Source: a virus. From it: a DNA stretch of 64,000 nt. The DNA is taken from positions 1 through 64,000 of the IMG/VR virus record IMGVR_UViG_3300037189_014399, one strand, 5' to 3'. Every line of letters begins with the position of its first letter. The first letter of the stretch is position 1. Below, one piece after another: positions 1 through 14,593 of this stretch. The notes beneath the pieces were generated by a model. The model was given only the letters and a program-made list of their open reading frames with translations, was not told where the DNA came from and did no database searches. The position numbers and the translations under genes were made by a program.

Positions 1-201
1 ATGTATGTTCTTGATACTAACAAGGATATCCCCGCCCCATTTTTACGTATGACTGCTGATGGGTGCGAGCGTATGTTCGTTCGTAACGACTTCGCCATAG
101 AGGTAGGTGAGCCTATGTCTATTCCCTGCTCATCTACGCCAGATGGTGCGGTAATGACGCTCTGTTCTACTCGTGTAGTAGAGGCTAAGCGTATTGCTTA
201 G
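1..201 (+). CDS. Hypothetical protein, possibly 5'-truncated
   Basis: An open frame of 66 residues runs from the first base of the window to a TAG at 199-201. An ATG sits exactly at base 1, but upstream sequence is missing, so neither the start nor a ribosome site can be judged. No motif or membrane segment is recognised. It is followed at once by a hairpin (213-238) and then a structured noncoding block, as for several later genes here. Confidence 0.55.
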   Translation: MYVLDTNKDIPAPFLRMTADGCERMFVRNDFAIEVGEPMSIPCSSTPDGAVMTLCSTRVVEAKRIA

Positions 202-212
202 ATGGCTTTATG

Positions 213-238
213 CCCCCCGCAGTTTTTACTGTGGAGGG
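213..238 (+). terminator. Hairpin after first gene
   Basis: CCCCCCGCAG (213-222) pairs with CTGTGGAGGG (229-238) through one mismatch and one G-U pair, with a six-base TTTTTA loop. It lies 12 bases after the stop of the first gene. No T-run follows, so it may stabilise a 3' end or belong to the RNA region downstream rather than terminate transcription. Confidence 0.4.
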
Positions 239-257
239 TATATGGGTATCTAATCCC

Positions 258-551
258 AATAGGGGGAGAAAGACACACAGGTAATACGCACCCCGTTGAT
301 GTGTATGGATCTATGGACGAACTGATGAGAGTTCATAGGTAGCCACGCCCGTTCCCTTGAGCAGGAGTACGCCTGTCTGAGCGTATGGTTTGTAATGAAC
401 CATAGAACTAAGATGCCATATCAGATGCTTATAGGTAAAGAGTCGCCATTGGGGTATAGCCGGTCAACCTAGCCTGCAACTTAAGTTGTATTTATACGAC
501 TTTACTACTTGCAAGCACGCCTCGTTACCTGTGTGTCTCTCCCTCCCTATT
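258..551 (+). ncRNA. Structured RNA closed by a 27-position helix
   Basis: Bases 258-284 are almost perfectly complementary to 525-551: 25 of 27 positions pair, one as G-U. This helix encloses 240 bases with no convincing gene. Inside are further hairpins: AAGTTGTA/TACGACTT with a TTTA loop near 483-502, TATGGTT/AACCATA around 384-404, CAGG/CCTG around 361-374, and an interrupted CTAT..GAAC/GTTC..ATAG stem near 311-337. The 3' strand of the closing helix ends directly before the AGGAGGAGAAGGAAGG ribosome site of the next gene (start 573). That points to a multi-stem RNA that is excised from the message or controls its translation. Family unknown; comparison with large phage RNAs such as GOLLD or ROOL would be informative. 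Confidence 0.6.
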
Positions 552-572
552 AGGAGGAGAAGGAAGGCAAAG

Positions 573-827
573 ATGCAATACAAGACTAAGGTTGTCTTGG
601 TAACTATCTATTACCGAGATACAGAGCCTAAGATTTCATTGGATGATTGGGAATCACCCGATTATCTCTTCCTCAATGATGCAATCCAAAGCTCGCTGAA
701 CAAATTCAATCCTGCGTCAAAAATCTTTGATGTCGCAATTGATCCCGTCAAAGAGTGGATCTTCCATACCGATAAATGGTGGATGCATTGGGCGTATCGA
801 CTGATAAGGAGAAAGAATGTCCTGTAA
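573..827 (+). CDS. Hypothetical protein (84 aa)
   Basis: The ATG at 573 follows a very strong ribosome site (AGGAGG, repeated purines, 552-566), so it is preferred over an upstream in-frame ATG at 486 that would lie inside the RNA helix. The protein is aromatic-rich, with a tryptophan-dense stretch (KWWMHWAY) near its C terminus and a basic tail. No family is recognised. Its end overlaps the next start by 11 bases, indicating coupled translation. Confidence 0.65.
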   Translation: MQYKTKVVLVTIYYRDTEPKISLDDWESPDYLFLNDAIQSSLNKFNPASKIFDVAIDPVKEWIFHTDKWWMHWAYRLIRRKNVL

Positions 828-942
828 TCATCCCGTAAATAAGAAGGCATCGATCAAGTTCTGTCCTCACTGTCTATCAGGCTGTGCCTGTTGTGAGTGG
901 GGCAAGAAGGTAACTTGCGATTGCTGTTCATTAGCTGTTTGA
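817..942 (+). CDS. Cysteine-rich zinc-ribbon mini-protein (41 aa)
   Basis: ATG at 817 is preceded by AAGGAGAAAG. The product contains nine cysteines in pairs such as CPHC, CACC and CDCC, as in tiny zinc-binding proteins. It overlaps the end of the preceding gene. No further identity can be given; several comparable mini-proteins occur across this window. Confidence 0.6.
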   Translation: MSCNHPVNKKASIKFCPHCLSGCACCEWGKKVTCDCCSLAV

Positions 943-955
943 GTGAGCACGACAG

Positions 956-1012
956 CCCACAGGTGTCCGTCGCCTGTGGGTTGTAGTGTCTACTCAGCGT
1001 AGGCAGACACTA
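956..1012 (+). other. Two perfect hairpins in tandem
   Basis: CCCACAGG (956-963) pairs perfectly with CCTGTGGG (973-980) over a nine-base loop; immediately after, TAGTGTCT (984-991) pairs perfectly with AGACACTA (1005-1012) over a 13-base loop. They start the noncoding interval 943-1384. Without a clear U-tract they may be terminators, processing sites or part of a larger RNA. Confidence 0.55.
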
Positions 1013-1191
1013 GACATCACATCGATGGTGACGTATAAAAGAGGCCTAGATATAGTTCGTAAATACGTTGAGCCTATCTTCCCCCTTTGTATAGGCGAAG
1101 GACGTTGATTCGTTACGGCTATCGATCTCGCTCTGTCTAGTGTTAAGTAGATGAATGCGGTCATAAGACCAAGTGACTCGAAACAAAAAGG

Positions 1192-1364
1192 AGGAGAGAG
1201 CGCAACAATTTATCAGGCCTAGTAGCAGCGTAGGACTGTTGGGCTTGCCCATTAGTGACACCAGGCAAAAGGCGGGGTTGATGAAGTTGAGTTAGCATCG
1301 AGGTTTGATGACTGTATAGATGGATTCGTAATTCCCTGATAGGTTCCGCTCTGCGCTCTCTCCT
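1192..1364 (+). ncRNA. Structured RNA closed by 13-bp helix
   Basis: AGGAGAGAGCGCA (1192-1204) is the exact complement of TGCGCTCTCTCCT (1352-1364). A second, nested helix of seven pairs, TATCAGG (1211-1217) with CCTGATA (1335-1341), stacks below it, separated by an internal loop. No gene is seen inside. As in the other blocks here, the closing helix ends just before the ribosome site (AAGGAAGGAAAAGG, 1371-1384) of the next gene. The rest of 1013-1191 shows nothing I can name. Confidence 0.55.
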
Positions 1365-1384
1365 ATCTAAAAGGAAGGAAAAGG

Positions 1385-2101
1385 ATGAGTGAACTAGTAA
1401 GACACTTAGATACAAATAAGTTGCCTTATCTAGATCGCGTTCATATGGCATTCCTTGAGAAGCATAAGAAAAGTGCTTCTTATGAGTGGCTTCAACATCG
1501 AGCAAGAATTATGGAGTATCAATGCCCCATAGTTATTCGAGATGAAGCCTATCAATTGGTTGCTATGAAGAACGGTAAGCATTCAGATCCTGATGGAATA
1601 CTCCTAATAAGACACGTCACACACGAACAAGCAATCGATATCATCAATGCAAGTGGTTGGTGGTATGGAAAAGGTATCGCTCGTTGTGATGAGGAGGGAA
1701 ACCACCTCGTCTTTTATTATGCATATAGCTTCAGTCGTTATGCATATACCTGGAGTACACCGGAAGATTCAGATACCGATCTAGATATTAACTTCCGTAA
1801 CTACTACATCAATTCCCTTTGTGCAATGAAGGGAACAACAAGGAAGGAGGTAGAGCGGATGTGCCATTGTTCAGGTAGATGCTATTGCGAACCAGCACTT
1901 GAGTATGAAGTGCGTGAACATAGCAATAGTGTAGTTCTTTCCAAAGGTCGTCAACAAATCAATGTAACAGTTGAGGAGTTGACAGGCTTGATGGGTTTCT
2001 TGGCTGGAGCTAAGCAAGAGATCAAGCGACTCAAGTTAGAGTCAATTGCTACTCAGATCGAAGATCTTGAGAAGCAGAAGAAGCAAGCAGAAGAACTCTA
2101 G
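1385..2101 (+). CDS. Hypothetical protein (238 aa)
   Basis: ATG at 1385 follows a long purine ribosome site. The protein has no recognised domain. A C-x-C-SGR-C-x-C cluster lies near residues 159-167 and the last 60 residues are lysine- and glutamate-rich and likely form a coiled coil. It is the first and longest gene of a run of small genes (1385-3261) that is bracketed by noncoding RNA blocks. Confidence 0.7.
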   Translation: MSELVRHLDTNKLPYLDRVHMAFLEKHKKSASYEWLQHRARIMEYQCPIVIRDEAYQLVAMKNGKHSDPDGILLIRHVTHEQAIDIINASGWWYGKGIARCDEEGNHLVFYYAYSFSRYAYTWSTPEDSDTDLDINFRNYYINSLCAMKGTTRKEVERMCHCSGRCYCEPALEYEVREHSNSVVLSKGRQQINVTVEELTGLMGFLAGAKQEIKRLKLESIATQIEDLEKQKKQAEEL

Positions 2102-2110
2102 GGAGGATCG

Positions 2111-2488
2111 GTGTACATAGATGGACAAGAGTATGAAGATCTCATCAAGTTCTATCAAGACAACAAAGACAACAGTCAATGGGATCTTGATGGAGATGAC
2201 GATCTCATCAATCGTTACATACCGACTCGCCAATCACTCCGCATCTATTGGAGTGAGAAGCGAGCACAAGTCAGATGGACTTACTACAAGTTCAAGTGGC
2301 AAGCAAGACACACTGGTTACCGCTTAAAGTTTGGTGTGTATCCAAACCCAACAAAAGTTGTTGGGCAGACACTATTCAAATATGATGAGCCTTACAGCTT
2401 CGTTATGTTTGATGAGCTGAACTTTGTTTCCCCCAAAGTCAGTTCAATGATGCATTCAGTGCTATTCACTAGCCCTGAATCAGAATAG
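2111..2488 (+). CDS. Hypothetical protein (125 aa)
   Basis: The start is a GTG at 2111, chosen because GGGAGG lies 5-10 bases upstream and the frame continues to 2488. An acidic patch (DLDGDDD) is followed by a basic aromatic stretch. No family is recognised. A frame in another phase (2121-2327) is a shadow. Confidence 0.6.
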   Translation: MYIDGQEYEDLIKFYQDNKDNSQWDLDGDDDLINRYIPTRQSLRIYWSEKRAQVRWTYYKFKWQARHTGYRLKFGVYPNPTKVVGQTLFKYDEPYSFVMFDELNFVSPKVSSMMHSVLFTSPESE

Positions 2489-2496
2489 GAGGAACA

Positions 2497-2625
2497 ATGC
2501 GTCACTGTGAAATATGTGGTGCAATGCCAATGATCGATGGTTATCGTTGTGAGAACATACAAGATAATGATGTGTGCATTCACTGCTGTAACTGCGAGGA
2601 CCACAAGGGAGAAAGCAATGGCTAA
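2497..2625 (+). CDS. Zinc-ribbon mini-protein (42 aa)
   Basis: ATG at 2497 sits four bases after AGGAGG. The product has CEIC near its start and CIHCCNC near its end, the spacing expected of a small zinc ribbon. It overlaps the next gene by eight bases. Function unknown. Confidence 0.6.
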   Translation: MRHCEICGAMPMIDGYRCENIQDNDVCIHCCNCEDHKGESNG

Positions 2626-2866
2626 AGAAATAAGCGAACACCTTGAGATCTCATTGTTTGAGGCTCAGAAGTTCGTACACGCAACACGGCACACCAATAG
2701 TAAGAGCAAGCACTGTCCCTTCTGCATTATTGTGGATGTGGCAGTTGGTACTTACAAAGCAGACACCAACAATCCGTTCGCTGTTGCTATCTTGACCGGA
2801 GAAGCCAAGTTAGCACACGACATAGTCAATGCAACAAAAGGAGGGAAGAAAGATGATGTTCTATAA
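2618..2866 (+). CDS. Hypothetical protein (82 aa)
   Basis: The ATG at 2618 is preferred over an in-frame ATG at 2537 because AAGGGAGAAAG lies directly upstream and the earlier start would cover the zinc-ribbon gene. The sequence contains one CPFC pair and a mainly helical N terminus. No family recognised. Confidence 0.6.
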   Translation: MAKEISEHLEISLFEAQKFVHATRHTNSKSKHCPFCIIVDVAVGTYKADTNNPFAVAILTGEAKLAHDIVNATKGGKKDDVL

Positions 2867-2993
2867 CGGATTCAATCTAATGATTGATATATTCCTAATT
2901 GCAGCCACATCATTTATTGTCTACCGCAATGCGTGGTGGGATGGATACCGCGATGGTATTGAAGATACAAAGGCAGGGCTTCACGATGAGTGA
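2853..2993 (+). CDS. Small single-pass membrane protein (46 aa)
   Basis: ATG at 2853 follows AAAGGAGGGAAG. Residues about 8-24 are hydrophobic (LMIDIFLIAATSFIVY), followed by an aromatic, charged tail (WWDGYRDG). It overlaps both neighbours, typical of coupled phage genes. Role unknown; small phage membrane proteins of this kind may modulate host envelope functions, but that is conjecture. Confidence 0.55.
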   Translation: MMFYNGFNLMIDIFLIAATSFIVYRNAWWDGYRDGIEDTKAGLHDE

Positions 2994-3261
2994 AGACCTA
3001 TCTGATCAACCACACGATCACGTGGTGATGGAACTACGAGTTGATTTTGTAGTGCCACGTGATTACGATGAGCTGAGCACCATTTCTTATGGTCTTGAGT
3101 ATTTAAGTAATATACTCATAGATGCTGAAGGCATCACAGAAGAGGACAAAGAGAACGCAACGTTAAAGGTAACACAGCGTGCTCGTTGTGAAGATCTGGA
3201 TGAACCTGATCCAGAGATCACATTAGATAATGTGATTAACATACATAGGAAAACAACTTAA
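2986..3261 (+). CDS. Hypothetical acidic protein (91 aa)
   Basis: ATG at 2986 overlaps the previous stop by eight bases; an upstream in-frame ATG at 2899 would lie deep in the preceding gene. The product is strongly acidic. No domain recognised. It ends the second gene cluster before a noncoding block (3262-3577). Confidence 0.6.
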   Translation: MSEDLSDQPHDHVVMELRVDFVVPRDYDELSTISYGLEYLSNILIDAEGITEEDKENATLKVTQRARCEDLDEPDPEITLDNVINIHRKTT

Positions 3262-3274
3262 TAGTATTACGTGT

Positions 3275-3337
3275 GCCGACACAAACATCGGCAGCGCTGG
3301 CCTGGTGGCTCACTGTGGTTCGATTCCACACAGCGCA
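3275..3337 (+). ncRNA. tRNA-like element with perfect T-arm, no anticodon arm
   Basis: TGTGG (3314-3318), loop TTCGATT (3319-3325) and CCACA (3326-3330) form a canonical tRNA T-arm. CAGCGC directly after it (3331-3336) pairs with GCGCTG (3294-3299), giving an acceptor-like stem. The 14 bases between (GCCTGGTGGCTCAC) contain GG pairs that could play the D-loop role, but there is no anticodon arm. Just upstream GCCGA/TCGGC (3275-3292) forms a further hairpin. The pattern resembles the tRNA-like domain of tmRNA rather than a tRNA. Function unknown. Confidence 0.5.
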
Positions 3338-3421
3338 CGCATCATACTGATTGGCGAGGTCTTGGCCGTTGTAGTCATAGGTATCCGATGCCTTGGTTAC
3401 GGTTCCTAAGGTAAAACCGAT

Positions 3422-3554
3422 GGGTAGGCAAGTACTAATGCAGGAGAGATCAAATGTGATTGCTGATACGAAAAAAGGATCGGGCTCCCAAGTGACAATG
3501 GTTTCCATTGAATACTGGTCAAGGACAGTCCCTGCACATCAGGCTTGCCTACCC
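3422..3554 (+). ncRNA. Structured RNA closed by 11-bp helix
   Basis: GGGTAGGCAAG (3422-3432) is the exact complement of CTTGCCTACCC (3544-3554). Inside, TGCAGG (about 3439) can pair with CCTGCA (about 3531), and CAATGG-TTT-CCATTG forms a tight hairpin near 3495-3509. The helix ends ten bases before the AAGGAAGG ribosome site of the gene starting at 3578. The interval 3262-3577 holds this element and the tRNA-like element and no gene. Confidence 0.5.
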
Positions 3555-3577
3555 CCTAGCTAAAAAGGAAGGTACAT

Positions 3578-4174
3578 ATGTTAGACATAACACTCCACGG
3601 TACTCCTCAACACCGCAATTCACTATCAATGGATATCAATGTACGTGGTTGGGTAATCAAAGCCAACCACGATTACAGAGGTTCTCATGAGTGTGCATTT
3701 AAGGTTAACAATGTAGGAATTACCTTTGAGGTAGAGTCTTCCAAGCTTGGATTCATGCCTGATCGCTTAAGCATTCAAGGCAATTGGTCTACCAAAGATG
3801 GAAGAAAGTGGATGGATAACGGGGGTTGGTTACCTTGGGACACGATGAACAAGTTAAAGTTTGAGTTCTTGCCTGATGCTATTCAGCAGATGGCATATCA
3901 AAACCTTGTTAAGTATCTTGAGCAATCAACAATTACTCTGGGTAAAAATCTACAGACTCTAAAGATAAACAAGCGCTTCGTACCGCTTGGATATGTAGAT
4001 ATGAATTCTAATGATGACTCTGAGGATGCATTGCCATTCTTACCATCAGTTAGAACAACTCAACCATCACCATTCATTGGTATGGATGTATCCAAATGGA
4101 AAGTAGCACGAGAGGAGATGGCGTGGGATCCATCAAAAGCTACATCAAACGCAGAAACCTCATCAGAGGTCTAA
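3578..4174 (+). CDS. Hypothetical protein (198 aa)
   Basis: ATG at 3578 follows AAAAAGGAAGG. The protein looks soluble and beta-rich in its first half. No family or motif is recognised. Its C-terminal 50 bases overlap the next gene in another frame. Confidence 0.65.
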   Translation: MLDITLHGTPQHRNSLSMDINVRGWVIKANHDYRGSHECAFKVNNVGITFEVESSKLGFMPDRLSIQGNWSTKDGRKWMDNGGWLPWDTMNKLKFEFLPDAIQQMAYQNLVKYLEQSTITLGKNLQTLKINKRFVPLGYVDMNSNDDSEDALPFLPSVRTTQPSPFIGMDVSKWKVAREEMAWDPSKATSNAETSSEV

Positions 4175-4398
4175 AGCGTTCAGCTAAATACGGTGGTGAG
4201 TGGGACATCAATGATATTGGTTCCGTCTCACTACGTATGAAAGACGGCAGCAACAGAGAGTATCTATTCTTCTGGCCTTATGGTTGGAAGGATGGCATAC
4301 ACCTATCAACACAGAAGATTGATAGCCTTATGCAATGTGAGACTATCGATGATATCTACACATTGCAGGAGGTAAGCAATGGAGATAACAATATATAA
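4123..4398 (+). CDS. Hypothetical protein (91 aa)
   Basis: A GTG at 4123 with GAGAGGAG six bases upstream is the preferred start; an ATG at 4096 lacks a ribosome site. The N terminus is basic (KSYIKRRN) and the middle aromatic (FFWPYGW). The end overlaps the next start by 20 bases. Unrecognised. Confidence 0.5.
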   Translation: MGSIKSYIKRRNLIRGLKRSAKYGGEWDINDIGSVSLRMKDGSNREYLFFWPYGWKDGIHLSTQKIDSLMQCETIDDIYTLQEVSNGDNNI

Positions 4399-4519
4399 CT
4401 GGTGGTTTAGTATCTATATTCCACAAGTTGTTGAGTTCCATACACAAATGGGTTGGGCAATAGCTGCTGTAGTAACAGCTGTTCTATTGCGACAGCTCAA
4501 GCGCAGGTTTCTTGGGTAA
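4379..4519 (+). CDS. Small membrane protein (46 aa)
   Basis: ATG at 4379 lies six bases after AGGAGG. Residues about 25-38 are hydrophobic (GWAIAAVVTAVLL) and followed by a basic tail (RQLKRRFLG), predicting a single membrane helix with the C terminus inside. Function unknown. Confidence 0.55.
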   Translation: MEITIYNWWFSIYIPQVVEFHTQMGWAIAAVVTAVLLRQLKRRFLG

Positions 4520-4536
4520 GTAATCCAAGGATGGCG

Positions 4537-4617
4537 GTGCATAGATGGACACTAGATACTGGTTCTTGACTTCCCTTCTCCCCAGTATCTTGGAGGGTTC
4601 AATTCCCTCTATGCACA
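4537..4617 (+). ncRNA. tRNA-like RNA with acceptor, T-arm and one long arm
   Basis: GTGCATA (4537-4543) pairs perfectly with TATGCAC (4610-4616), followed by an A at the discriminator position. GAGGG (4593-4597), TTCAATT and CCCTC (4605-4609) make a canonical T-arm. GATACTGG (4555-4562) pairs perfectly with CCAGTATC (4582-4589) over a 19-base loop. A D-arm is absent; its place is taken by 11 bases containing GG. The plan (acceptor, D-loop without stem, one long helix, T-arm) is that of the tRNA-like domain of tmRNA or of a D-armless tRNA. No CCA is encoded. Confidence 0.6.
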
Positions 4618-4621
4618 CGGA

Positions 4622-4806
4622 GAAGACAGAGACCTAATGAGAGATTGCAAGTGCTCGGTATCCCATGGGGAGACTAATCCGACACAAACAATCGATCAAA
4701 AGCCCAGCGTAGTCTATATGATTTAAAGTTCCGTTCGATAAACCCGGACAACCTGCCTACTGTGCGATCATGAACCAATGTTGGTGAAACTGGTGTCTCT
4801 GTCTTC
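4622..4806 (+). ncRNA. Structured RNA closed by 12-bp helix
   Basis: GAAGACAGAGAC (4622-4633) is the exact complement of GTCTCTGTCTTC (4795-4806). AGACTA (about 4671) and TAGTCT (about 4709) can pair inside, and CCAATG-TTGG forms a small hairpin. No gene is visible. The element begins four bases after the tRNA-like RNA and ends twelve bases before the AAGGAG ribosome site of the WhiB-like gene, so it may form one transcript with both. Confidence 0.5.
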
Positions 4807-4828
4807 TTCCTAAACATAAGGAGAACAA

Positions 4829-5143
4829 ATGAGCAAGCCAAGAAAAAGAGTATCTCTTGGCACTCCAGTCAACCTACCACCACAGAATATAGATAACTGG
4901 AAGTGGCAATTTGATGCAGCGTGCAGAGATGAAGATAACAATCTCTTTTACTATCAAGATCAAGAACGTGGTGATCAAAAAGCATCGCGTATAAAAGCAG
5001 CCAAAGCAATATGTGCTAGCTGTCCAGTAAGCACGGCCTGTTTAGAGTGGGCAACCAGAACAAAAGAAACTCATGGCATTTGGGGTGGATTGACCCCAGA
5101 AGAACGCGGCATTAAGATGCCACACGAAGAATTGGTGGACTGA
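4829..5143 (+). CDS. WhiB-like iron-sulfur transcription factor 1
   Basis: The 104-residue product has the four conserved cysteines of the Wbl family (C32, C62, C65, C71; the last three as C-x2-C-x5-C) and the GIWGG turn (residues 83-87) followed by a basic-acidic C-terminal helix. Wbl proteins bind a 4Fe-4S cluster and act with the primary sigma factor on host promoters. ATG at 4829 follows AAGGAGAAC. It is flanked on both sides by structured noncoding RNA. It probably redirects host or phage transcription; the phage target is unknown. Confidence 0.9.
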   Translation: MSKPRKRVSLGTPVNLPPQNIDNWKWQFDAACRDEDNNLFYYQDQERGDQKASRIKAAKAICASCPVSTACLEWATRTKETHGIWGGLTPEERGIKMPHEELVD

Positions 5144-5540
5144 TCATCCATCATATAGGGAGACTAGAGCGGGAGTTACAAGGTAACGAAAACTCTTTTC
5201 CACACCCTATGTAGGGCAGGCACACAATGAGATCTCCATTAGTTAATAAAGGATCGCCTCAAGATGCCCGTCTCCAGCAACGTCTGCATACGTCTGCATA
5301 CAAGAGTCCTCACGCACTAGTGATGAAGGTACCGTGCTAGCACAGGTCAGAAAACATCATGAACGCTACGACAGGTTGCGTATTACGGTATTACGGTTCC
5401 GTGAGCGAAGGCTGAGGGGTGCCTGTACATGACAGGAGCAAGGAATAAAGACTAATTCGGTCAGCTATATCTAATAACGTAAAAGGATATAGAGAACATT
5501 GTGTGTGTTTCACCTCACAACTATACGTGTCTGCTTATCG
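5144..5540 (+). other. Noncoding block with hairpins and short tandem repeats
   Basis: No gene is convincing between the WhiB-like gene and the ATPase at 5662. ATAGGG (5155-5160) pairs with CCCTAT (5205-5210) and encloses a perfect GTTAC-AAG-GTAAC hairpin (5175-5187). A ten-base unit, CGTCTGCATA, occurs twice in tandem (5281-5300), and an eight-base unit, GTATTACG, twice (5380-5395). CCTGT-ACATG-ACAGG forms another hairpin near 5424-5438. The mixture suggests structured RNA and perhaps protein-binding sites. Confidence 0.45.
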
Positions 5541-5605
5541 GCGTGTCGTTGTGACAGGGGGAGGGCGTGACTAGCAGACTTCAGGGTGCAAGTCCCTGAC
5601 ACGCA
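5541..5605 (+). ncRNA. Third tRNA-like element
   Basis: CAGGG (5582-5586), loop TGCAAGT and CCCTG (5594-5598) resemble a T-arm, with G instead of T at the second loop position. ACACGC (5599-5604) can pair with GCGTGT (5541-5546) as an acceptor stem, or CACGC with GCGTG (5565-5569) as a shorter one. No D- or anticodon arm can be drawn. A separate hairpin, AACCACC/GGTGGTT (5615-5633), follows before the ribosome site of the next gene. Confidence 0.35.
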
Positions 5606-5661
5606 CGCAGTTATAACCACCATCGGGGTGGTTAGCTGTAAAGAAAAGGAAGGCAGTAACA

Positions 5662-7035
5662 ATGAAAACAGCGGTGTTTGTAGAAACGTACGAACCGGCA
5701 ATGGGCGCAGATCGTCGTCAGACTATCTTCGTACCATTTAATGAAGACGTGCGAGTGTATACCCGTGTCACTGATGGACAGAAAGGATTGTCTAATAAGT
5801 GGAACGAAGTTGCAATTGACATGTTGCACATTAGCGAGTCGGAACGTATCACTAACAAGCCAGTTGGTGTACGTGTTACTGAGAACGACAACGACGATAT
5901 CAGTGAAAAGGGTTACTCACCTGTACTCACTGTCAAAGCCGTCAATGCCCACCTCAAATCAACACCATATGGAGAGCATGATTACAATGTCCTTGATGTT
6001 GTACGTGATCTCTACCAACATGTTAGTGCTCAAGATAGTGTGGTTGAGTCAATGATTATTGACAATCGTACTAAGCCTGAGCCTTCTCCATTCATGCCTG
6101 TTACAGAAGCTGCTCCAGTTCAGGAGTATGTAGAGCGTCCAGCCGACACAAACAAATCGCTGTCGCTGGCACTCGCAACTATTCCTGCACCTGAGCTAGC
6201 TGATCGCTATGTAAGCCGTAAGATCTTCGGTCTCGTAGATTACGAGGTCTTTGATCGTAGCCGTGCAAATCATATCGACACTCTTATCTACGGCCCTACC
6301 GGTCCTGGTAAGACGTCATCTGTAATGGCGTGGGCTTCAAGCCGCAAATTACGTGTTGCTACAGTATCCGGCAATGCTGCTCTCGAGCCAAGTCAACTCA
6401 TTGGTAAGTATGTACCAGATGGGAAGGGTGGCTTTGAGTGGATTGACGGTCCTGTGACTGACGTAGTTCGCAATGGTGGTGTTCTTATCCTCGATGAGGT
6501 TAACTTCATCAGCTCTAAAATCTATACCGTCTTGTATTCATTGCTTGATGATCGTCGTGCTCTCATTCTGCTCGACCATCACGGTGAGACTGTTAGTGCA
6601 CATCGTGACCTAACAATCTTTGCGACCATGAATCCTAGCTATGTTGGCACAGTGCCACTTAACTATGCATTCCGCAACCGTTTCGGTCTACAGATCTTCT
6701 GGGACTATGACGATAAGGTCGAGGCCAAGTTAATTAAGTCCGATGCAATCCTAACTGTAATGCGTCAGCTACGCAGTGAGGCTGCTAAGGGTGAGATCGA
6801 GACTCCAGTATCTACCAATATGGGTATGGAGTTGGAATCATTCATTAACGTCTTCAATTATGAGTTTGCAATTGAGAACTTCATTGCTCACTTTGACATG
6901 GAAGAACAAGAAAAGGTCCGTCTAGTCTTCACTACCCACGAAGCTAACATTCGTGCTGACTTTGAAGAAATTCAAGTCGAGTTGGTAGAAAAGGAAGATG
7001 ACATTCAAGCAGTAACTACAACAGTAGGAGCATAG
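5662..7035 (+). CDS. CobS/MoxR-like AAA+ ATPase
   Basis: The 457-residue protein carries a Walker A motif GPTGPGKT (211-218), a Walker B VLILDE (274-279) and a downstream ATMNPS sensor 1-like motif, as in the MoxR/CobS branch of AAA+ ATPases. About 180 residues precede the ATPase core and are unrecognised. CobS works with CobT in aerobic cobalt insertion into the corrin ring; MoxR relatives act with VWA proteins as metal-loading or assembly chaperones. The VWA partner follows three bases later. Phages often carry this pair, and its phage role is not established. ATG at 5662 follows AAAAGGAAGG. Confidence 0.85.
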   Translation: MKTAVFVETYEPAMGADRRQTIFVPFNEDVRVYTRVTDGQKGLSNKWNEVAIDMLHISESERITNKPVGVRVTENDNDDISEKGYSPVLTVKAVNAHLKSTPYGEHDYNVLDVVRDLYQHVSAQDSVVESMIIDNRTKPEPSPFMPVTEAAPVQEYVERPADTNKSLSLALATIPAPELADRYVSRKIFGLVDYEVFDRSRANHIDTLIYGPTGPGKTSSVMAWASSRKLRVATVSGNAALEPSQLIGKYVPDGKGGFEWIDGPVTDVVRNGGVLILDEVNFISSKIYTVLYSLLDDRRALILLDHHGETVSAHRDLTIFATMNPSYVGTVPLNYAFRNRFGLQIFWDYDDKVEAKLIKSDAILTVMRQLRSEAAKGEIETPVSTNMGMELESFINVFNYEFAIENFIAHFDMEEQEKVRLVFTTHEANIRADFEEIQVELVEKEDDIQAVTTTVGA

Positions 7036-7038
7036 CTA

Positions 7039-8997
7039 ATGGCATATAAGGATAAGATCGAATCAGGAAGGGGTAGACGTGGCGACAAAGCTCGCACAGT
7101 ACAAGATCAATTACGTTCTTTACGTCTTGGCGCAATAGCTAGGATGTATCAGGGCGCAGATCGTATCTTGACTGGCGATCCTGTAGTCGTCAACGTTGTA
7201 GATGAGGGTCCGGCCCCAGCGTGGTCGGACGGCGCATCTATCACTCTCAATGCTGCGATGATCAATGATATGGATCTTGAGACTATTGCTCAAATCAACG
7301 GTCTCAATTACCATGAGTTGTCTCATCACCTCTACACTCCACGCAAGGGTACCCCACTAGTTCAGTGGGTCATTGAAGAGAATCTATTCCAAGCATTCAA
7401 TTGCTTGGAGGATCAACGCATTGACTCTCTACTATGTGCACGGTATCCAAGCATCATGCCGTTCTTGACTGCTACGGTTCTTCGCTATCTAGCGGAGACA
7501 CCAAAGGAGGCAACATCAGCATATGCAATCGTGCGTGGTCGTAGATATCTACCAGTAGAAATTCGTACAGGCTTTAGAGAAATCTTTCATAAGCCTGAAC
7601 TTATTCCTGACATTGTACGTATCGTTGATGAGTATCGAGTGCTTGCATTCCCTCGGGATTACAAGCGTGCTCAAGAACTAATCAAAGAGTTCAATGACAA
7701 GGTATTGGATAAGATGGATCAACCAACATCTGGGGGTGTTTCCCAGTGTGGTCATCGTGTTCCAATAGCTAAAGGTAGACCAGATCCTGGTCGTCAACAG
7801 GAAAAGGATGCTGCACGTGCCAAAGGTCAAGGTGCTAAAGAACCTGACCTAACCGATGAAGAACTCAAAGCCATGATTGAATACATGGATAAAGAGAACG
7901 TCATGGATGATGGCGATGGCAATGTCCCAACACAAACACCAGCCGAGGACAGCACAGACTCACAAAATGAGACTGATACTAACCTCACTGGTGCTGAGCA
8001 AGTAGAACAACGTCAACGCAATGTGGCTAACTCGACCCCCAAGGTTGGTAAAGGCCATGTTGCTAGTGATGGTGGCTTGCCTGACGACTTGGAAATCACT
8101 ATCCAAAATGCTCTTAATGACATCTATGGTCGTAAAGACGTACAGATGGACGTTAAGCGCAAGCAACGCATCATTGTCAATGGTGGCAAAGACGATGACT
8201 ATGAAGAGACTGGTGTTCGTGGTAAGTTTGACGAAGCAACAGTTCCTCAATCAGAAATCATCGTATATCGTAAGTTCGCTAAGGAACTTCAACGCCTACG
8301 TGATGATGCTGAACCAATGTGGGAAAAGGAGATGCCTTCGGGTCGTCTCAATGTCCAACGTGTAATAAGAGGCTGCGAGATTGATGAGGCCTTTGATCGC
8401 TGGACAGAGCAAGATGACAGCTGCAATATTGAGGCTGTTATCTGCATTGACCGCTCTGGTTCAATGTGTTCAAACCGCAATGACGAGCGTGCTTCGCTCG
8501 CCAGCTGGGTTATCAAGCGTGCATTAGAAAGCATCGGCGCTCCGGTGACTGTGTATGCGTTTGATGACAAGACCGAAGTTGCGTACGCTCGCAATGAATC
8601 TGCACACAATACCAAGTTCAAGTTTATCTTTGGTAGTGGTGGTACAGATCCATACGAGTCGTTAGTTATGGCAGAAAAAGTCTTACTAGCTTCTCAGCGT
8701 ACAAACAAGATGCTATTCGTTATTACTGACGGTGTGTTCAACACTGAAAAGAATGACGAGTTGATCAAGCGTATTGGTCAGCGTGGCATCTTGACATGCA
8801 TGGTACTTATCATGCGTACTCAGGAGTACAACAACTCCTTAGAATATAATAAGCAATCGATTGAAAGAAATGGCAGACCACACTGGGAATTCCGTCATGA
8901 AGCAGAGATTTTTGGCCAAGTAGATAGCGGCCGTGATCTCCTTAATCTGGCAAAGACCGTCGTGCTCGGTGCTATTAAAAAGAGATCGAGGAGATAG
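7039..8997 (+). CDS. CobT-like VWA-domain protein
   Basis: The 652-residue protein has HELSH (residues 92-96), an HExxH-type pattern followed by an acidic LEDQRID segment, a charged low-complexity middle (about 245-345), and a C-terminal von Willebrand A domain with the metal-site motif DRSGSM near residue 471. That order matches CobT-type partners of CobS/MoxR ATPases. With the preceding ATPase it probably forms a chelatase- or chaperone-like complex that remodels or metallates a substrate. In this genome a cobalamin-dependent ribonucleotide reductase makes a cobalt-related role attractive but unproven. Confidence 0.85.
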   Translation: MAYKDKIESGRGRRGDKARTVQDQLRSLRLGAIARMYQGADRILTGDPVVVNVVDEGPAPAWSDGASITLNAAMINDMDLETIAQINGLNYHELSHHLYTPRKGTPLVQWVIEENLFQAFNCLEDQRIDSLLCARYPSIMPFLTATVLRYLAETPKEATSAYAIVRGRRYLPVEIRTGFREIFHKPELIPDIVRIVDEYRVLAFPRDYKRAQELIKEFNDKVLDKMDQPTSGGVSQCGHRVPIAKGRPDPGRQQEKDAARAKGQGAKEPDLTDEELKAMIEYMDKENVMDDGDGNVPTQTPAEDSTDSQNETDTNLTGAEQVEQRQRNVANSTPKVGKGHVASDGGLPDDLEITIQNALNDIYGRKDVQMDVKRKQRIIVNGGKDDDYEETGVRGKFDEATVPQSEIIVYRKFAKELQRLRDDAEPMWEKEMPSGRLNVQRVIRGCEIDEAFDRWTEQDDSCNIEAVICIDRSGSMCSNRNDERASLASWVIKRALESIGAPVTVYAFDDKTEVAYARNESAHNTKFKFIFGSGGTDPYESLVMAEKVLLASQRTNKMLFVITDGVFNTEKNDELIKRIGQRGILTCMVLIMRTQEYNNSLEYNKQSIERNGRPHWEFRHEAEIFGQVDSGRDLLNLAKTVVLGAIKKRSRR

Positions 8998-12344: not shown

Positions 12345-12393
12345 TGTCGGGCGGGCGGGCATATGTCTGACCAGTTACCTAGCGCAGACAACC

Positions 12394-12574: not shown

Positions 12575-14593
12575 CTATCCTATCTTTATCTCACAGACGT
12601 CAGTTGTACAGTAAGCCTCACCACTACCTTCTATTGCGTTGCCGGCATAGATAGGAGATAGGTCGATCCGCTTAATCTTTCCTACGTAGGAATTGTACTC
12701 GTCTTCCGTAATCTCAGTGTACGGTTGCTGAGGGTAGACGTCATTGCCTTTAGGTAGGAAACTTACGGTCTTGAGACGGCCCTCATACATATGTAGGACA
12801 GTTCCAATATGTTGGGCCTCTGTATCTGTATTGAAAGAAAGCGTTACTGAGACAGAGTTGTCGGCCCAATACTGCTGGGCGAGCGCTGCTAAGTTAGCCT
12901 TCTCAAAGATGGATACCGTCTGCTCTGGTCTTACAGCCACAGACTTTACAGGAAAGTAAACAACAGCTGTGTTGTTTGGATCCGTTACTGAATCTTCTAC
13001 CTTGTACTTGGCTGCCTTAAACAACTTAAGCATAGGATCTGATTTAGCAAACCTAATTGATCGCAGGATATATTGACCACCGATAGGCCAGTGAACTCCT
13101 GGAGTCTCTCCGGCTAGGATTGAGACAGTACCGGATGGCTTGATAGATGTGGTCTTGATTGACTCACGTACGCATAGCCATTCTGAATATACCTTGTCCC
13201 ACTTCTGAACCTCTGAGTAACCAGCGTCAAGCCATTCCCGTAACTTAGGTAGGCCTTTGGTATCAGCGAAGGCTGCCAACCCAGATACTGAACAACCAAT
13301 ACGACGATTACGTTGCATAATTGCATTAGTTTGAGGCCAGTGTGTTGGAATTAAAGTAACAGTCTTGGCGTACAAGTAAGCAAACTTTAGGGTACGTAGG
13401 TAATCCTTCAGGTCTGTATGACGATTAATGTAGGTCTCTACAAGAGTGCAGCATTCATATGATTCTAGTGTCTGCTCAGCACATGGGTTATAGCCGGCAG
13501 CTCTGTAATCCTTGTTGTTTGCTGGATCATTTAAACGTCCGTACTTACGGGATACGTCTAGCCAGATAAATCCTGGTTCACCGTTCAAAGCAATAGCCTC
13601 TGTAAATGGGGAGTAATCCATACCTACAGTTGCTTCCAGGGAATTGTTAGACATCCAACCCCAACCAGGAGACTGTGGGTCGTATGAGTTGCGCTCAGGG
13701 AATACTGAAGAGTTCTTTAGATTAAAGAAGTCCTTATCATCAGGCTGTCCCATAGCCAACTCTGCTGAACGACGTACGTTACCGGAGACTACGCACACAC
13801 CAATAAGATTAGCGATGTCTACAATATCTGTAGTGGTGAGTCTCTCACCTGCTCGTCCCTCGAATATTTTAATGAGCGACTTATGAAGTCTCTCTAGAGG
13901 CTCTGATCCGGCTGCCGTTCCACCGAAGGTTTTAATAGGCGTGCCTGCTGGACGGATCTCTTTGTAATCAAATACTGGAGTCTCCGAATCTCCTCGGAGG
14001 TAAGCATTGATGAGGAGTTGGACTGATTCAACCCAACCTTCTCTACTGTCGGGTACAAGGTAGGGGTAACTTCCTTTTGGTTCATAAATTAAGAATTCCT
14101 TACTTGCTCCCTTAGTATCAAAACCAACACCCACACCTAACATCGATGCTTCCATTAAGAATACGAATGGTGAGGCTGGGTCATTCTTTGACATATCTGC
14201 TGTGCTTACAAAGGCACAGTTCTGCAACGCTGCAGAGTTTCTTTGTTGCATTACAAACGGAGTACCCATCATCCAGAGCCCACGTCCGGGTGGTGTCCAC
14301 TTCAGGTTAAACATTCGATCAAATGCCTCTTGAGCAGAAGCTTGGGCCTGTGCCCCGTTCCATGGGAGACGGTTAGCCTTACAGTGATCTTTTTCAATTG
14401 AGAACATTCCCTCAATTACTCTTCTACAAACATCAACCCAGGTTTCTTTATTCCCGTCATCCTTGATTCGGGAGTAAGTACGCATGAAGGTGATCTCACC
14501 TACGGAGTTGCCACCGGCATCGGTGTATCCCCAAGGTACCTCTTTGGTTTGGTAAGAAGAAACAAAATCTTCTGTTAAACGGAATGAAAACAT
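12575..14593 (-). CDS. nrdJ: Adenosylcobalamin-dependent ribonucleotide reductase (class II)
   Basis: The 672-residue protein matches monomeric class II reductases. C126 (in NCAFVS) and C381 are candidates for the substrate-reducing disulfide pair around the N369-P-C371-A-E373 active-site motif, where C371 would be the thiyl radical site. The C terminus ends with C-x4-C (C662, C667), the swinging redox pair used for thioredoxin reduction. It converts ribonucleotides to deoxyribonucleotides for phage DNA synthesis and requires vitamin B12 coenzyme. No intein or truncation is seen. Phages commonly carry such genes to be independent of host nucleotide supply. Confidence 0.93.
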   Translation of the reverse strand: MFSFRLTEDFVSSYQTKEVPWGYTDAGGNSVGEITFMRTYSRIKDDGNKETWVDVCRRVIEGMFSIEKDHCKANRLPWNGAQAQASAQEAFDRMFNLKWTPPGRGLWMMGTPFVMQQRNSAALQNCAFVSTADMSKNDPASPFVFLMEASMLGVGVGFDTKGASKEFLIYEPKGSYPYLVPDSREGWVESVQLLINAYLRGDSETPVFDYKEIRPAGTPIKTFGGTAAGSEPLERLHKSLIKIFEGRAGERLTTTDIVDIANLIGVCVVSGNVRRSAELAMGQPDDKDFFNLKNSSVFPERNSYDPQSPGWGWMSNNSLEATVGMDYSPFTEAIALNGEPGFIWLDVSRKYGRLNDPANNKDYRAAGYNPCAEQTLESYECCTLVETYINRHTDLKDYLRTLKFAYLYAKTVTLIPTHWPQTNAIMQRNRRIGCSVSGLAAFADTKGLPKLREWLDAGYSEVQKWDKVYSEWLCVRESIKTTSIKPSGTVSILAGETPGVHWPIGGQYILRSIRFAKSDPMLKLFKAAKYKVEDSVTDPNNTAVVYFPVKSVAVRPEQTVSIFEKANLAALAQQYWADNSVSVTLSFNTDTEAQHIGTVLHMYEGRLKTVSFLPKGNDVYPQQPYTEITEDEYNSYVGKIKRIDLSPIYAGNAIEGSGEAYCTTDVCEIKIG

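Follow-up and report, generated by a model that had tools for sequence, protein, structure and literature searches.

The virus record IMGVR_UViG_3300037189_014399 raises the question of what occupies five islands of its sequence (202-572, 943-1384, 3262-3577, 4520-4828, and 5144-5661) that lack any convincing gene and alternate with small open reading frames (ORFs) on the plus strand. Positions refer to the window, the whole 64,000-base stretch of DNA analyzed here, which comprises bases 1-64000 of a record of 104,858 bases. An earlier note, made from the letters alone, had described this alternation, and it holds: ORFs within the islands (e.g., 202-342) were not counted as genes because codon and ribosome-site scoring, our own procedure for gene calls in place of a standard gene finder, did not pick them. 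The answer proposed here starts from islands 3, 4, and 5, which carry mimics of the "top half" of a transfer RNA (tRNA), domains that the earlier note had overlooked. Such mimics probably mark the sites at which a long viral message would be cut by host tRNA-processing enzymes.

tRNA top halves and closing helices in the islands

In islands 3, 4, and 5 alike, an acceptor stem and a T-arm, whose loop is of the TTCRANN type, stack to form a common element; ACG comes next, and then in most cases a helix running up to the following ribosome site. In island 3 (3294-3336, plus strand, with ACG at 3337-3339), the element reads GCGCTG, a linker of 14 nucleotides (nt), TGTGG-TTCGATT-CCACA, and CAGCGC ahead of the ACG; there is no anticodon arm, and homologous elements occur in a related contig (L154:7528 and L154:14370). 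Adjoining its 5′ end is an H-type pseudoknot, GTG[TGCCGA]CAC-AAACA-TCGGCA (3271-3293, plus strand), which scores above all 100 shuffles. The tRNA-like domain of island 4 (4537-4619, plus strand) combines an acceptor of 7 base pairs (bp; 4537-4543/4610-4616) with the T-arm GAGGG-TTCAATT-CCCTC (4593-4609) and ACG (4617-4619). At the place of the anticodon arm stands an 8-bp helix (4555-4562/4582-4589) with a C/U-rich loop (4563-4581), and a sequence-diverged homolog of the domain lies at L154:8745-8816. By inspection, the C/U-rich loops of tRNA-like domains (window 4563-4581, L154 8745-8816, and L144 4801-4871) resemble anti-Shine-Dalgarno sequences. In island 5, the mimic (5565-5604, plus strand; ACG 5605-5607) is composed of GCGTG, a linker, CAGGG-TGCAAGT-CCCTG, A, and CACGC before its ACG, with a hairpin (5607-5639, plus strand) between it and the ribosome site of the gene for a MoxR-type ATPase. 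The element stands at the equivalent place upstream of MoxR in L154, L108, L109, L118, L114, L163, and L166, and because of homology an alternative, distal acceptor strand at 5541-5547 appears less likely than the proximal one at 5565.

None of the three mimics is called by ARAGORN or Rfam. ARAGORN reports no tRNA and no transfer-messenger RNA (tmRNA) in the window, and Rfam likewise identifies neither a canonical tRNA gene, with its tRNA model, nor a tmRNA there. Nor do the elements look like tmRNA, the alanine identity pair G3-U70 being replaced, by sequence, with G3-C70 in islands 3 and 4. As expected of a t-element, the tRNA-like structures lie at gene boundaries and follow the orientation of the transcript.

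The long helices to which the earlier note drew attention hold up in part. Islands 1 and 2 (202-572 and 943-1384, both plus strand) contain no tRNA-like element, and each opens with a plain hairpin (210-241 in island 1; 952-984, of 12 bp, in island 2). The closing helix of island 1 (271-285/524-538) has 15 uninterrupted pairs, which the minimum free energy (MFE) fold extends outward with interruptions. Island 2 has helices at 1006-1016/1134-1144 and 1192-1204/1352-1364, the latter of 13 pairs; a 3′ domain of island 3 (3422-3554, plus strand) is closed by 12 pairs (3422-3433/3543-3554); island 4 has a helix of 15 (4619-4633/4795-4809); and no long closing helix was found in island 5. Relative to dinucleotide shuffles, the MFE z-scores of islands 1 to 5 are -4.8, -3.7, -2.0, -3.0, and -1.0, respectively. 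Against 15 shuffles, uninterrupted helix length exceeds all in islands 1 and 4, ties the best in island 3, and falls within the shuffled range in island 2, whose 13 pairs include no G-U while the shuffled null admits such pairs. The claim of long helices in four islands is sustained for islands 1, 2, and 4, and the helix of island 3 is near chance in length. Similarly, the helix can be said to close the island in island 1, and in island 4 without its tRNA-like domain, while in islands 2 and 3 only the 3′ part is enclosed. The 3′ arm does end shortly before a ribosome site in islands 1 through 4, as the note had stated; among relatives, upstream pairing of the stretch before the ribosome site (z < -3) occurs in 34 of 175 predicted islands versus none of 31 coding controls.

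Rfam gave no match for any island, its GOLLD, ROOL, and OLE models stayed without a match in the window at E values as high as 10, and readings as a group I intron, a hepatitis delta virus (HDV)-like or hammerhead ribozyme, or a riboswitch found no Rfam support within the window. A Y RNA (YrlA)/Ro60 reading was also rejected, the TROVE domain PF05731 being absent from the 104,858-base record; a protein partner could be host-encoded. The islands were also considered as sites of promoters or terminators, a reading rejected on shuffle counts: promoter-like matches number 9, versus 12.1 in shuffles, and terminator-like matches 7, versus 3.9, with none at the 3′ end of any island.

Recurrence and covariation in related phages

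Relatives were gathered by means of ribonucleotide reductase and the MoxR protein, whose gene in the window (5662-7035, plus strand) served as the anchor. Removal of regions with many common 31-mers reduced 62 upstream regions to 50 (416,639 bases), among which some close relatives remain; the informative relatives are metagenomic contigs, and some thresholds were chosen after inspection of the data. A search of the 50 regions for an acceptor stem, a T-like hairpin, and ACG returned 40 matches on the coding strand versus one on the other, the 40 not being 40 independent events, given the close relatives among the regions; three of them (L165, L122, and L131; ATTGAT...ATCGAT) look like spurious coding coincidences. 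Among all 64 trinucleotides, ACG ranks first in matches, and the runner-up, CAC, probably represents the same elements shifted one register back. When ACG is not required, distinct T-loop elements carry G1-C72 in 28 of 36 cases on the plus strand versus 1 of 13 on the minus strand. A73 is also kept, and G1-C72 with A73 is typical of tRNA-processing substrates. Acceptor and T-stem vary in sequence yet stay paired, the T-loop remains TTCRANN-like, and downstream of AC the G usually opens a helix. Outside this phage clade the element is nearly absent: other loci totaling 1.63 megabases yielded seven distinct matches, mostly from contigs of the same clade.

Across the relatives, the elements form a series that runs from complete tRNAs, through forms that lack the anticodon arm and have linkers of 10-19 nt, to bare minihelices of 11-12 bp. 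Complete tRNA-Met and tRNA-Arg stand at comparable places in some relatives; at the other extreme, minihelices retain the T-loop at L159:3855, L132:3355, L125:4337, and L113:1711, and others carry an 8-nt loop such as TGTCATAG. What follows the element is of two types, either a small hairpin with the ribosome site within about 60 nt, as in island 5, or a long helix that encloses a larger domain (island 4, L154:7571, L158:7500, L171:6593, and L125:7695). A significant upstream H-type pseudoknot was detected at 12 of 34 elements, island 3 included, versus 7 of 58 random places; most of the 12 end at most 3 nt from G1, and several are close mutual relatives. Separately, an H-type pseudoknot (TGAGCA...TGCTCA) lies directly 5′ of tRNA-Arg(CCT) in L101, L134, L136, L147, and L160, contigs that show further pseudoknots ahead of start codons.

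Beyond the mimic, island 4 contains an RNA domain (4619-4809, plus strand) closed by its long helix, P1 (4619-4633/4795-4809), with a P3 hairpin that bears an AUG triloop (4656-4681). In an alignment of 15 homologs (A2), a structure comprising P1, P2, P3, and a pseudoknot leaves 91.5% of cells paired, with double changes in 21 of 37 pairs; the structure was taken from a single member, L141, which inflates the percentage paired and not easily the compensated changes. Doubly changed cells number 57, versus 20.2 in shuffles, and the signal is lost on sliding the partners. The covariance model R2 scores island 4 of the window at 114 bits, but the window belongs to its training set, and E-values from this model and from R1, introduced below, are rough. 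WhiB is the product of the downstream gene in L154, L108, and the window, whereas genes for other small proteins follow in L164/L132 and again in L141/L140; a gene-specific riboswitch is therefore disfavored. A second covarying family occupies the island upstream of the gene preceding MoxR in 16 relatives, where 14 of the 19 predicted pairs of the closing helix are doubly changed, and its model, R1, detects it in three further contigs. R1 matches none of the islands of the window, and island 3 was rejected as a member for want of a match there. Within the window, R1 scores best at 3622-3688 (E 0.0012), a coding-region hairpin that aligns to the outer helix only, with 137 model positions skipped.

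The islands contain at least two covarying RNA families, together with a motif B described below, that have no Rfam counterpart. These structures, their covariation, their strand and clade specificity, and their tRNA-type determinants are direct results of the comparison. A shared plan and the family of phage RNAs suggested in the earlier note are supported: the layout recurs in dozens of related contigs, and in two island families the helices are retained with changed sequence, including double compensatory changes. The stronger notion, of a common core, does not survive comparison of the islands, since the tRNA-like element is found in islands 3, 4, and 5 but not in islands 1 and 2, and no single core is present in all five.

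As a side observation, other phages (L174, L175, L177-L179, L183, L185, L186, L189, L192, and L194) carry a stand-alone RNA, about 250 nt in length and flanked by TATAAT-like and terminator-like sequences, that includes the 26-nt P3 hairpin and has no Rfam match. An exact-pattern search for the hairpin in 84,980 cellular genomes found none. A kissing-loop dimer through the island 4 palindrome CCCATGGG was considered and rejected, as the variants TCTCATGGAGA and GGCACCATGGGTGCC preserve the local stem and not the palindrome.

Proposed punctuation of the transcript and its alternatives

Among the parts of a tRNA that RNase P, RNase Z, and the CCA-adding enzyme read are its acceptor-T helix, T-loop, G1-C72, and A73. 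Because the mimics carry these parts, and because t-elements and the M3 and C4 RNAs discussed below provide precedents, punctuation with protected leaders is proposed. From the structures we infer a single long transcript, its cleavage, the enzymes responsible, and the stabilization of the products. The islands would sit inside one rightward polycistronic phage message, and host tRNA-processing enzymes that recognize these tRNA parts in each mimic would split it: RNase Z would cut after A73, whether or not RNase P also cuts before G1. The downstream piece would then begin 1-2 bases before a helix. This helix, which either belongs to a small hairpin or closes a domain of 150-230 nt, may shield the 5′ end and lead into the next ribosome site; the products would be leaders or noncoding RNAs. 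In islands 1 and 2, which have no mimic, one might guess that the long closing helix is itself an RNase III processing site. Overall, conserved structured RNA modules, with mimics at which host RNase Z, RNase P, or both would punctuate the rightward transcript, constitute the best explanation, to which we would assign about an even chance. The further idea that the graded mimics, from complete tRNA to a 12-bp minihelix with ACG, form a punctuation code exposing leaders that start with a helix, along with new families of noncoding RNA, falls a little short of that. Among the mechanisms raised in the earlier note, RNA processing between cistrons, with cleavage presumed, fits best because of the tRNA mimics, and gene-specific translation control is less likely because the island 4 structure is kept before three different genes.

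Several points weigh against punctuation by mimics. Islands 1 and 2 lack the mimic altogether; the ACG of the elements differs from the ACC(A) with which genuine RNase P substrates usually terminate; and the closing helix lies above nearly all shuffles in 9 of the 30 elements tested, a low score that arises partly because the next-gene call is often wrong. The search pattern was refined after the first examples, the fair controls being the minus strand and other phages or clades. Processing could also be incidental to some other RNA function. A rival reading is that the islands are genes for trans-acting noncoding RNAs, small or large and structural, lying between protein genes, in which the tRNA-like part serves only to define or protect the RNA end. 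This is a tentative alternative, clearly less probable than punctuation: it would accommodate the retention of the island 4 structure before different genes, and the presence of its P3 hairpin inside a stand-alone RNA with promoter-like (TATAAT) and terminator-like flanks, but model R2 matches those RNAs over the 26-nt hairpin only, and many elements have just a small hairpin and a ribosome site downstream, too little for a separate RNA gene.

Control of translation in cis seems unlikely; in such a scheme, the Shine-Dalgarno sequence would be masked or exposed by helices next to the ribosome site and by the C/U-rich loops of the tRNA-like domains. The closing helices stop before the ribosome site, which stays free, C/U-rich anti-Shine-Dalgarno loops occur in few elements, and conserved tRNA determinants would be unnecessary for such control. 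It does draw some strength from the 3′ arms that stop just ahead of ribosome sites, from the strand-specific CCAACACAAACA motif near many gene starts, and from the loop of the L154 domain, 9 bases of which, by inspection only, are complementary to the ribosome site downstream (the loop in the window has fewer). It is less probable still that the islands represent tRNA genes in decay, signals for packaging or replication, or some other feature of the DNA whose folding is incidental. Complete tRNAs at similar places in some relatives would be compatible with decay; however, such readings are disfavored because of the covariation in the island 4 domain and in the closing helix of the second family. 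Pairing of the acceptor and T-stem is moreover kept despite sequence change, the element has a 40:1 strand bias, and decay would not retain the T-loop, G1-C72, and A73 while dropping the anticodon arm.

Punctuation of a viral message has several partial parallels. RNase III punctuates T7 early messenger RNA (mRNA) at long intercistronic helices, which fix mRNA ends; T7, however, lacks tRNA mimics, and the parallel applies at best to islands 1 and 2. Plant-virus tRNA-like structures are preceded by pseudoknots, as are some of the present elements, island 3 included, directly at the 5′ side, but the phage elements are internal and intercistronic and have a significant pseudoknot in only the minority counted above (12/34). 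In plant mitochondria, RNase P and RNase Z set RNA ends at t-elements, at mRNA ends (PMC11658184). The analogy with these elements and with mitochondrial tRNA punctuation is one of working, tRNA-like structures standing at mRNA boundaries of a polycistronic transcript beside real tRNAs that play the same part; the phage case differs in its reduction to acceptor-T minihelices, its constant ACG, its structured leader domains, and cleavage that is presumed. RNase P also cuts phage M3 RNA, C4 RNA, and some mRNAs (PMC11143913). The M3 RNA of phi80, the C4 RNA of P1/P7, and T4 gene 32 mRNA resemble the present case as tRNA-like phage transcripts acted on by a host tRNA enzyme, but those are single RNAs, whereas the phages studied here have several intercistronic elements per genome. 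Theta (HDV-like) ribozymes, found at phage tRNA 3′ ends (PMC10879173), are likewise structured RNAs that start at that position; in contrast, the island 4 RNA is about 190 nt long, its P1 closes the whole domain, it has no Rfam HDV match, and the element upstream of it is often something other than a tRNA. GOLLD and ROOL (PMC12286853) are also large, conserved, phage-associated noncoding RNAs, unlike the islands in that the latter have no Rfam match, are smaller, and comprise multiple unrelated domains per genome. The earlier note knew of no named system with this plan, and the Rfam searches and the literature searched agree. tRNA punctuation in organelles and RNase P cleavage of single phage RNAs are already known. 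If the present proposal is true, a phage lineage with reduced mimics at a number of its gene boundaries would indicate how small a part of a tRNA suffices, and would provide both a natural series from tRNA to minihelix and compact processing signals.

Genome setting and other recurrent motifs

The surrounding genes are named from our own reading and from annotated homologs. A WhiB-type protein gene (4829-5143) lies directly 3′ of island 4, the MoxR-type ATPase is followed by a CobT-like protein (together 5662-8997), and genes of contractile-tail type are present in the window. The host is likely actinobacterial because cultured distant relatives infect Gordonia and Brevibacterium; the phage may be of freshwater origin. 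The first 87 bases of the record (window 1-87) are repeated at its end (L107 4773-4859), and the genome is therefore probably circular or end-repeated.

Two further motifs recur. Motif B, in island 5 (5167-5195, plus strand), consists of two helices around a fixed internal loop, CGGGA/GAAAA. In general form it is [C/T]GGGA-helix-GAAAA with an outer helix, present in exactly one plus-strand copy per phage in 24 of the 50; none was found on the minus strand of the same 50 phages, and both helices vary in sequence. A constant motif, CCAACACAAACA (counted as CAACACAAACA), has 129 copies on the coding strand versus 3 on the other upstream of MoxR in the 50 phages, often 20-60 nt ahead of a start codon and sometimes within genes. 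In the window it occurs at 3279 and 4682 (the variant CCGACACAAACA; also at 6145 and, on the minus strand, at 12348). In one distant relative only, L104, Rfam reports a Hammerhead_II match at 13747-13814, near tRNA-Ala and just upstream of the MoxR homolog.

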